This document shows, piece by piece, positions 3,074 to 6,877 of a stretch of DNA of 8,570 bases. The translations under genes were made by a program, and so were the position numbers. Origin of the DNA: Candidatus Helarchaeota archaeon. GTDB lineage: Archaea > Asgardarchaeota > Lokiarchaeia > Helarchaeales > HEL-GB-A. Under the pieces are notes generated by a model. That model saw nothing but the letters and a program-made list of their open reading frames with translations. It made no database searches and was not told where the DNA came from. The DNA lies in assembly GCA_013375405.1 (NCBI GenBank), contig JABXJU010000190.1, positions 1 to 8,570 of the forward strand, in the 5' to 3' direction. Each line of letters begins with the position of its first letter. Positions within the stretch are counted from its first letter, which is position 1.

Positions 3074-4165
3074 TCATTCAGGTCTTGGTGAACCACAGAG
3101 CTGACAAGTTTTATCATCCTTTGATTTAAAGATAAATCCACAGTTCGGACATGAGATCTCTTTTTTCTTTTCTTTTTTTCTTTTCTTTTCAATTTCAGGG
3201 GGTATCGAAGCAAGAAAAGGAACTTCTTTAGTTTCTGGCATTTTATGAGCGTTAGGGGGTGGTTGGGGTTGTGTTTGGGGATAAGGAATGCCCCGGGGTT
3301 CTTTCCGAGTCGGCATTTTAAGGTTTTTAGCGAATCCTTTGCCTTTAACAGGACTTGCAGGCTCTTCAATAATGGGCTCTATCAGATGAGTTTCGGATTT
3401 ATAGACCTTTTGTTCGAGTTCTTGGACAACTTCCATCCAATTTGGGGGGTGAATAGGATCCCAACCTCGAATAGTTTCTAAGGCTTCTCCAGCATCTCCT
3501 AAAATATTATGCAATACTTGAGGAAGATCGAATACAGGAGGATGTGGATAGGGAGAAAAATCAACAATCACCTGATAATGAATAGCTTCCTTCACGCGAA
3601 CCGCAGCGGTTAAAAATAATCTATATTTCGTAATGGTGCCATCTAGCATTTCAACGGCGAATTGTTCTAGTAATTTTGTGGCTTGTTCGGAGTGTTGTGT
3701 AGTTCGACGATTAACCTCCTCACTAGCAGGCGTAACCCCATGGCGCTCCTCAACAGTATGATCTAATTGTTTGAGATCTTCATTTGTTGCAGACACCCGG
3801 ATCATTAGTTCTAAACCTTGGGAGAACTCTGCAATTTTTTCGGGAATAAGTTCGCCGTTTGATAGATCTCCATAGATATTAAATAGCATCTCATAAGCTC
3901 TAATTAAATAAGTCTCAATAAGCTTATCACTTGTATCTAAAGTTGCTGCTAAAATCATAATAATTTCATTAAAATTACCAAAAGCAATCCGCAATTTATC
4001 CCAATGAATTAATTTATAGGTATTTTCATTTTCCCGTGCTACAAAAGGGATATATGCTGTAAAAAAATTGAAAAAGGGATCCCGATCTTGATATTTCGCC
4101 CAATAGTCCTTATAAAAGAGATATTTGCCTGTTACCTTACTGACCACTGCAGCCAAATGAAACAT
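3074..4165 (-). CDS. Longin-like / E2(RWD)-like / zinc-ribbon fusion protein
   Basis: A 363-residue protein with three recognisable parts. Residues 1-100 follow the longin strand/helix order: FHLAAVVSKVTGKYLFYKDYW as two strands, an amphipathic helix DPFFNFFTAYIPFVARE, then strands in KLIHWDKLRIAFGN and IIMILAATLD and a final helix. After a helical linker, residues 160-262 resemble a ubiquitin-conjugating E2 or RWD fold: a helix, strand YQVIVDFS, the YPHPPVF proline turn, then GWDPIHPP and a long helix. No Cys lies where an E2 would carry its catalytic one, so any E2-like role would be non-catalytic (UEV or RWD style). A proline- and lysine-rich linker (about 265-336) ends in a zinc ribbon, Cys339/342 and Cys354/357. 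It starts 26 bp after the preceding gene's stop, with GTGAT close to the ATG, and is probably co-transcribed with it. Longin and RWD assignments are from fold-pattern reading. Confidence 0.8.
   Translation of the reverse strand: MFHLAAVVSKVTGKYLFYKDYWAKYQDRDPFFNFFTAYIPFVARENENTYKLIHWDKLRIAFGNFNEIIMILAATLDTSDKLIETYLIRAYEMLFNIYGDLSNGELIPEKIAEFSQGLELMIRVSATNEDLKQLDHTVEERHGVTPASEEVNRRTTQHSEQATKLLEQFAVEMLDGTITKYRLFLTAAVRVKEAIHYQVIVDFSPYPHPPVFDLPQVLHNILGDAGEALETIRGWDPIHPPNWMEVVQELEQKVYKSETHLIEPIIEEPASPVKGKGFAKNLKMPTRKEPRGIPYPQTQPQPPPNAHKMPETKEVPFLASIPPEIEKKRKKEKKKEISCPNCGFIFKSKDDKTCQLCGSPRPE
3163..3190 (+). terminator. Plus-strand T-rich tract inside the convergent gene
   Basis: The Lys/Glu-rich linker of the minus-strand gene (KKRKKEKKKE) makes the plus strand a series of T-runs of four to seven here, about 95 bp past the stop of the nitronate monooxygenase-like gene. 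No other T-tract follows that stop, so this may be where its transcript ends. Inference only. Confidence 0.25.
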
Positions 4166-6082: not shown

Positions 6083-6877
6083 TTATACTAATTTTTTATT
6101 TACAGTCCTAACTTTTTTAGTATGTAGAGTTTTTTGGGCAGAAAGATTTACAGGAAATTGGAGAATCATTTCTGAATAACGGTGATACTCATTAAGAAAT
6201 TTATTTAATTTAAAAAAAGGGAGAATCGGCACATGTTCAAATATTTTTATCTCATACATTTTTGAGGTGACAATCATCGGAATGATTTTTGCGTTCTGCC
6301 AATTAGTGAGATTGAGTTTGTCGCGGACGGATCGTTTCATTGTTGATTTAGAAAATGCTTTAACACGACGGATTTGGTTTTTTACCATTGTTTTTAACGC
6401 ACTTGCACGTCCAGTCTTCCATTTTTTCGCATCTATAGCGAATATTAAGGGCTTTTTTATCCCGATTACATCAATTTCATATCGTTTTTTGTGATGTGTA
6501 AAATAATAATTCTGTATGCAAAAGAATTCATGATGGTCAAGAACTATAAAGCAGAAGTTTTCAAATTCTTTCCAATGAAGCATCGAGATAATCTGATCTA
6601 AACTTACCCCTAGGGATATTGCTTTCTTAACTAAATTCATCTTAGATTTTTTAGGAATTATGATTAAATTCTTTTCAATTTCCATAAATCCAGTCAATTC
6701 TTCATTTAAGTCTTGGATGATTTTGAAAACGTTTTGTGGGGAAAGTTTGGTTTGCTTTACTAAGCTCTCAATGGCAATTTCTTCTTGTTCTTTACTCATT
6801 TGTAGTAAATCTAGAATAAAATTTTTACTGGAGATCACACTTTTCAACCTGTTATATTTCTCACACTCTATTTTCAA
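6083..6877 (-). CDS. Winged-helix protein with a PD-(D/E)XK nuclease-like domain
   Basis: A 264-residue protein. Residues 15-75 look like a winged helix: helices ISSKNFILDLLQ, IAIESLVKQTK and SPQNVFKIIQDLNEE, then the wing MEIEKNLIII. Residues 100-200 carry a restriction-endonuclease-like core: WKEFENF (Glu104, Glu106), a strand, YEIDVIG with Asp136, and FAIDAKKW with Asp149 and Lys151. This is the E...D...(D/E)xK arrangement of Mrr- and Holliday-resolvase-like nucleases. All core acidic residues and the Lys are present, so activity is possible; the substrate is unknown. The tail is basic. No methyltransferase or other restriction partner is nearby, so a DNA repair or maintenance role is as likely as defence. 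The start is TTG without a Shine-Dalgarno motif; a GTG at residue 14 is an alternative, and the ATG at residue 27 would cut the first helix. Confidence 0.82.
   Translation of the reverse strand: MKIECEKYNRLKSVISSKNFILDLLQMSKEQEEIAIESLVKQTKLSPQNVFKIIQDLNEELTGFMEIEKNLIIIPKKSKMNLVKKAISLGVSLDQIISMLHWKEFENFCFIVLDHHEFFCIQNYYFTHHKKRYEIDVIGIKKPLIFAIDAKKWKTGRASALKTMVKNQIRRVKAFSKSTMKRSVRDKLNLTNWQNAKIIPMIVTSKMYEIKIFEHVPILPFFKLNKFLNEYHRYSEMILQFPVNLSAQKTLHTKKVRTVNKKLV

Follow-up and report, generated by a model that had tools for sequence, protein, structure and literature searches.

The locus and its protein family

The window, an 8,570-nucleotide stretch of a Candidatus Helarchaeota genome (contig JABXJU010000190.1), carries a gene for a 363-residue protein in which a longin domain is followed by an apparently inactive E2-superfamily domain, a proline-rich linker and a zinc ribbon (Table 1). 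The gene is a single open reading frame (ORF) on the minus strand that begins with an ATG at 4165 and runs down to 3074, exactly as drawn in a preliminary description made from the letters alone. Because 24 database proteins, the window's own included, match the product at E ≤ 0.001 and 45 columns are invariant in the 24-row family alignment (A1), we regard the ORF as a real gene. Only four of the 24 carry organism names, three Helarchaeota and one Promethearchaeota, and the sole reference-genome match is Helarchaeota Hel_GB_A (locus L001, 68% identity), which bears out the Asgard origin first proposed.

Table 1. Features of the locus, with examples of a related protein family
Feature	Position	Strand	Evidence
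Longin - E2/UEV/RWD-like - zinc-ribbon protein, 363 residues	3074..4165	minus	ORF, ATG start, relatives, alignment A1
Longin domain, residues 1-127, order β-β-α-β-β-β-α-α	3785..4165	minus	AF2 model, Foldseek, VIA, Pfam, PDB sequence search
Highly conserved inter-domain stretch, residues 136-155 (HTVEERHGVTPASEEVNRRT), running into the first helix of the E2-like domain	3701..3760	minus	Invariant columns
Putative E2/UEV/RWD-like domain without catalytic Cys, residues 158-255 (YPHPP, LG, GWDP, ELEQKVY)	3401..3694	minus	hmmsearch/hhalign with controls, alignment A4, PDB BRE and E2s, Pfam BRE
Conserved tail of the E2-like domain, residues 249-269 (ELEQKVYKSETHLIEPIIEEP)	3359..3421	minus	Invariant columns between E249 and E267
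Proline-rich low-confidence linker, residues 270-335, one GIPYP motif	3161..3358	minus	pLDDT, motif count
Zinc ribbon C-x2-C-x11-C-x2-C, residues 339-357	3095..3151	minus	19/24 rows; Pfam zinc-ribbon matches under cut-off
Predicted Tubby-like β-barrel, 12 strands then C-terminal helix, 308 residues	4192..5118	minus	Predicted structure
Zinc ribbon plus Roadblock/LC7 protein, 242 residues	5230..5958	minus	Pfam Robl_LC7 6.7e-10, Zn_Ribbon_1 3.7e-6
RING-like family (A3), examples	L025:856-2508, L003:649-1821		E2/RWD repeats, then RING-like Cys/His finger

The A1 profile matches 47 of the 147 relatives' genomes, and orthologues that span both the longin and the E2-like part are present in four (G001-G004). 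Apart from one match to the longin alone (G119), one to the tail (G017) and some partial matches, all others represent the E2-like part within different proteins. Between the two domains, the conserved stretch contributes nine invariant columns (R141, T145, A147, S148, E149, E150, N152, R153 and R154).

The N-terminal longin domain

The AlphaFold2 (AF2) model of the window protein is confident over its N-terminal domain and displays the longin topology. The 15 best Foldseek matches of the modeled domain are all titled AP or COPI, and the longin subfamilies tie in the VIA fold comparison. At the sequence level, Pfam Fuz_longin_1 matches 15 of the 24 family members at E ≤ 1 (best 5e-6); P0017 attains 27.2 bits against a cut-off of 26.1, and the window protein itself stays under it with 14.5. 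A profile of ten longin proteins (A5), which includes L021, L041 and L042 by choice, retrieves AP-4 sigma (E 0.008), MON1 (0.014) and VAMP7 (0.023) from PDB sequences. A phmmer search of the PDB with the window protein yields only weak syntaxin and zinc-ribbon-type matches. Structure and sequence confirm that the domain is a longin, and confident model, fold comparison and profiles agree with the strand/helix pattern on which the original assignment was based. We rejected placement in any one eukaryotic subfamily. The preference for MON1 is weak, because AP-4 sigma and VAMP7 score like it (all within E 0.008-0.023) and the folds tie. The window protein holds a single longin, then the E2-like domain, linker and ribbon, and not the three longin domains that guanine nucleotide exchange factor (GEF) subunits of the MON1/FUZ/HPS1 type carry in one chain.

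Among the matches listed for 227 genomes of the phylum, the longin part alone is shared with many other Asgard proteins, for example a 327-residue protein in G004 (E 1.7e-29), and further longin plus E2-like proteins occur in G003, G004 and G023. The latter (L041, L042 and L021, respectively) sat in the query, and their A5 matches arise by construction. L041:131-880 and L042:5980-6744 are second longin plus E2-like paralogues in their genomes. Their longin aligns to that of the target with an hhalign value of 94.2 (shuffles at most 1.7) and has a weak Pfam match of the INTU/CCZ1/HPS4 type (E 0.034 and 0.12), the target's being of the FUZ/MON1/HPS1 type. To the eye, the N-termini of L022, L098, L099 and L100 resemble longins, but they reach an hhalign value of only 0.9 against the target longin; these were rejected and are not counted. 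The N-terminus of a 288-residue family (P0056 and others, with L021 as a member) gives 7.3. We note that the target longin reached 10.9 against repeat 2 of the RING-like family, a negative control, and values of about this size therefore carry no meaning.

The E2-like domain

By its sequence, the middle domain is apparently an inactive module of the E2 superfamily (UEV/RWD-like). Residues P207, P210, W235 and D236 of the YPHPPVF/GWDP region are invariant in A1. Residues 158-262 are Cys-free in 19 of the 24 rows; the other five (P0020-P0024) have one Cys each, in an 'FFCEF' stretch that closes the first helix, ahead of the YPxxPP turn. The catalytic position after that turn has no Cys, as noted from the outset, and an active E2 enzyme was rejected.

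An hmmsearch with a profile of residues 146-262 reveals the domain in other Asgard ORFs, many of which have several copies, and by profile search it occurs in at least 77 of the 147 genomes. For hhalign the target-domain profile comprised 27 rows, and L022 was left out of the repeat alignments. The domain aligns to repeats 1-3 of a RING-like sister family (A3) with values of 96.4, 99.7 and 99.0, compared with at most 1.2 for ten column shuffles (against repeats 1 and 4) and at most 2.8 for the reversed profile. Of the two Pfam UQ_con stretches in the A3 member L025, the better one (37-106) falls within repeat 1; the RWD match, at 388-478, falls within repeat 4. A 42-domain profile of the A4 type (41 of 101 listed instances plus the window), in which RING-family repeats are included, has BRE/BRCC45 as its best PDB match (E 3e-4; best stretch 0.0037), aligned from ahead of the YPxLPP turn to the W.P.NP helix. 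E2 enzymes follow at E 0.006, and Tsg101 is absent among the 23 PDB matches. The longin proteins alone (A5) reach BRE only at E 2.

Other proteins with the domain

Thirty-nine regions were chosen by hand, not at random, from the list of domain matches; 38 hold the domain and one is a 10-base placeholder. In nine of the 38 the C-terminus reads as a JAMM-like HSHP...D motif, and Pfam Prok-JAB matches all five JAMM-like proteins scanned, four of them over the cut-off. These Asgard fusions of E2-like and JAMM/JAB-like parts (L075-L079, L101, L111-L113) are about 220-280 residues long and might correspond, in one chain, to the BRE-BRCC36 pair.

A3 comprises 25 proteins, mostly of 550-620 residues, with three or four E2-like repeats followed by a RING-like C-terminus; L012 ends ahead of the RING-like part. 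At E ≤ 0.1, Pfam UQ_con and RWD each match 23 of the 25 (best 7e-11 and 1.7e-8). UEV matches three (best 1e-5) and FANCL_d1 two (best 9e-4), with weak Rubicon-homology matches to the RING part in five (best 4.6e-5). The family might be of the E3 type, akin to FANCL or BRE. Because of the JAMM-like and RING-like fusions, the E2-like lineage is tied to ubiquitin-type machinery better than by the window alone.

Among the other hand-picked carriers, some have RING-like fingers or coiled coils, and some have what reads as an ABC-ATPase-like domain. In L004:100-1698, E2/RWD-like domains precede an ABC-ATPase-like domain (Pfam ABC_tran 1.4e-6, over the cut-off), and another ABC-type ATPase ORF adjoins. 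The same order is seen by eye in L091 and L095-L097; a Pfam scan of L091 found no ABC_tran.

Linker and zinc ribbon

The predicted local distance difference test (pLDDT) score of the AF2 model is below 50 in residues 252-278 and 284-335. At least one copy of a GI.YP motif, and up to three, is found in 17 of the 24 relatives, and it could be a short binding motif. The four-Cys ribbon is kept in 19 of the 24 rows. Since it is missing in the other five, it is an add-on of closer relatives, and we rejected it as a constant part; the proteins of G002, G003 and G004 end without one. Of the three-part architecture envisaged in the preliminary description, the ribbon exists as described and lies outside the conserved core; it is the longin plus E2-like arrangement that is preserved across G001-G004.

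Gene neighborhood

A gene for a Tubby-like protein sits 26 bases upstream of the longin gene, and the two form a recurrent gene pair. The Tubby fold is a 12-strand barrel around a central helix, and the fold predicted for the neighbor has this arrangement. The family has no Tubby match in the PDB by sequence, and neither Tubby nor LOR appears among the Pfam matches listed for 32 of its members. It is widespread in Asgard archaea, occurring in 105 of the 147 genomes, 88 of which have a single match. The zinc-ribbon roadblock gene beyond it is well supported (Robl_LC7 39 bits, cut-off 23) and occupies the same order in L001.

Other genes in the window include an ORF at 6083-6877 whose resemblance to NERD/Mrr-type nucleases is weak (NERD E 5e-4, just under the cut-off); a similar ORF adjoins the roadblock gene in L001, again in the same order. 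Positions 304-1413 encode a queuine-type tRNA-guanine transglycosylase (TIGR00430, 470 bits, cut-off 307), by model name of the queuosine and not the archaeosine kind, and L001 has a similar ORF. Near the longin gene, G002, G003 and G004 encode a coiled-coil-like protein of 413-416 residues, and G003 and G004 a protein of 765-781 residues; the regions concerned are L037:14130-17816, L038:10420-11670 and L039:5073-8831. No clear family was obtained for these two neighbors in L037 and L039.

Proposed role and alternatives

On balance, the window protein is probably a non-catalytic adaptor that combines longin-based docking with an E2-like module of the ubiquitin system and has a Tubby-like partner at the membrane. 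The longin would serve as a platform for docking and dimerization, of a type to which small GTPases or other longin/roadblock proteins attach; passages of PMC10933270 describe longin and roadblock dimers as GTPase platforms. The Cys-less E2/UEV/RWD domain would act as a protein-protein module that binds ubiquitin or a partner from the ubiquitin system, and in Helarchaeota-type members a flexible proline-rich tail would carry the extra ribbon. The product of the adjacent Tubby-like gene is a likely partner that would anchor the assembly to the membrane; the roadblock protein encoded beside it in the window and in L001 is probably a further one. That the protein docks to GTPases, ubiquitin-system proteins and the membrane is what we infer; the GTPase-platform, UEV-ubiquitin and BRE-module roles are transferred from described systems.

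Several results tell against the adaptor. The target domain aligns to repeat 4 of the RING-like family with a value of only 2.8. Repeat 4 itself gives 95.3 with repeat 1, and 3.7 and 3.8 with repeats 2 and 3, so that the link from the target to the RWD-matching repeat passes via repeat 1. The A1 profile found neither E2 nor longin in the PDB. Our confidence is slightly reduced because these two comparisons failed. Pfam BRE touches four of the 24 family members, and weakly (best 0.0075; P0012 residues 178-255, E 0.12). The AF2 model of the middle domain, built on the 24-row alignment, has low confidence, with pLDDT block means of 27-61 in residues 161-260, and none of the 50 VIA rows, most of them covering residues 1-130, is an E2, UEV or RWD chain. 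The matches of the A3 RING part to Prok-RING_1 are weak (7 of 25, best 0.0014). In G002 the Tubby-like gene is on a different contig from the longin gene, and no longin protein was recognized at 25 of 30 Tubby-like loci having no more than about 1.5 kb of flanking sequence; the pairing is therefore not obligatory. Finally, a Pfam scan of 10 window ORFs turned up no ubiquitin, ESCRT or GTPase gene. Of the preliminary description, then, structure prediction and fold search recovered the longin, and the E2/RWD-like middle holds by sequence profiles and invariant residues without a confident model. Its adaptor idea gains from the JAMM/JAB and RING-like fusions elsewhere, from BRE as nearest solved relative and from the Tubby-like and roadblock neighbors; it loses by the non-core ribbon, the missing neighbors and the poorly modeled fold.

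The longin is the best-supported part of the protein, and it might function mainly as a GTPase regulator subunit, a scaffold like MON1 or NPRL2 for GEF or GTPase-activating protein activity, its E2-like domain being a structural or assembly module with no ubiquitin link. The weak Pfam preference for FUZ/MON1/HPS1-type longins (15 of 24) and MON1 in the PDB at E 0.014 point this way. The paralogues L041 and L042, which join the domain to a related, weakly INTU/CCZ1/HPS4-type longin, would fit a heterodimer, and passages of PMC8534245 describe SEA/GATOR with longin proteins NPRL2/NPRL3 and RWD protein Sea3 around Rag GTPases. However, AP-4 sigma and VAMP7 score like MON1, and a ubiquitin role is favored because JAB and RING-like parts occur in fusion with the E2-like lineage and the wider profile is closest to BRE. 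We consider regulation of GTPases alone rather unlikely. A coat- or sorting-type cargo adaptor, with a longin like an AP/COPI small subunit and a UEV-like domain reading ubiquitin or proline motifs as Vps23/Tsg101 does in ESCRT-I, accords with the AP and COPI titles returned by Foldseek, with the interaction of Asgard UEV proteins with ubiquitin described in parts of Hatano 2022 (PMC9192718) and with the Asgard longin plus Vps28-C or adaptin-appendage proteins in parts of Makarova 2024 (PMC10936438). Yet the window protein has no steadiness-box or Vps23-core match among its nine listed Pfam families (weak evidence), the PDB matches lack Tsg101, and no adaptor large-subunit or ESCRT gene is among the scanned ORFs. 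Such an adaptor is very unlikely.

A bolder, quite unlikely reading is an Asgard membrane-bound platform without a described eukaryotic counterpart, in which longin-UEV/RWD dimers, held by the Tubby-like, lipid-binding partner, would couple small-GTPase state to a BRE/BRISC-like ubiquitin module. This would be a relic predating the split of GTPase regulators (MON1-CCZ1, GATOR) from ubiquitin complexes (BRISC). In some lineages the dimers would pair two paralogues, with FUZ/MON1-like and INTU/CCZ1-like longins, and the JAMM and RING parts of the module would reside in other fusion proteins that carry this E2-like domain.

Comparison with known systems

Among the titles and abstract openings returned by searches of the open-licence PubMed Central (PMC) literature, none described a longin-UEV/RWD fusion, an Asgard BRE relative or an Asgard Tubby-like protein. 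The findings bear on how eukaryotic membrane traffic and ubiquitin signaling became wired together. Membrane-switch proteins and ubiquitin handling may already have been linked in close relatives of eukaryotes, and a single-chain longin/E2-fold link in the archaea closest to eukaryotes offers a small, expressible protein with which to probe that wiring.

Related Asgard proteins are already published. Those of PMC10936438 likewise join a longin to an ESCRT-related domain, but the partner is Vps28-C and not an E2/RWD fold; the portion of that paper drawn on here describes no longin-UEV protein, and its main text has no occurrence of RWD. The UEV/Vps23 ESCRT-I proteins of PMC9192718 share a Cys-less E2-fold domain but, in the portion drawn on, are joined to the Vps23 stalk/steadiness box or to Vps28; the main text mentions neither longin nor RWD. 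PMC12872458 contains no occurrence of RWD, longin, tubby or BRCC. The Tubby-like neighbor differs from Tubby/TULP/LOR barrels in the missing sequence matches given above.

Among eukaryotic longin proteins, Sec22b, VAMP7, AP sigma, zeta-COP and MON1 differ from the window protein, in which just one longin is joined to an E2-like domain. SNAREs carry a SNARE helix and a membrane anchor besides the longin.

BRE/BRCC45 (BABAM2; BRISC, BRCA1-A), which passages of PMC7692841 describe as UEV-N, RWD and UEV-C in a row, differs in having no longin; the window protein, for its part, contains just one E2-like domain and also a zinc ribbon. The likeness is to UEV-N, the best PDB match of the domain profile, through the YPxLPP turn and W.P.NP helix, and it depends on a profile that contains RING-family repeats. 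It extends to the Asgard RING-like relatives L003, L005, L011 and L025, with three or four E2-like repeats, and the wider domain family, with its JAMM-like and RING-like fusions, provides candidate forerunners of BRISC-type complexes.
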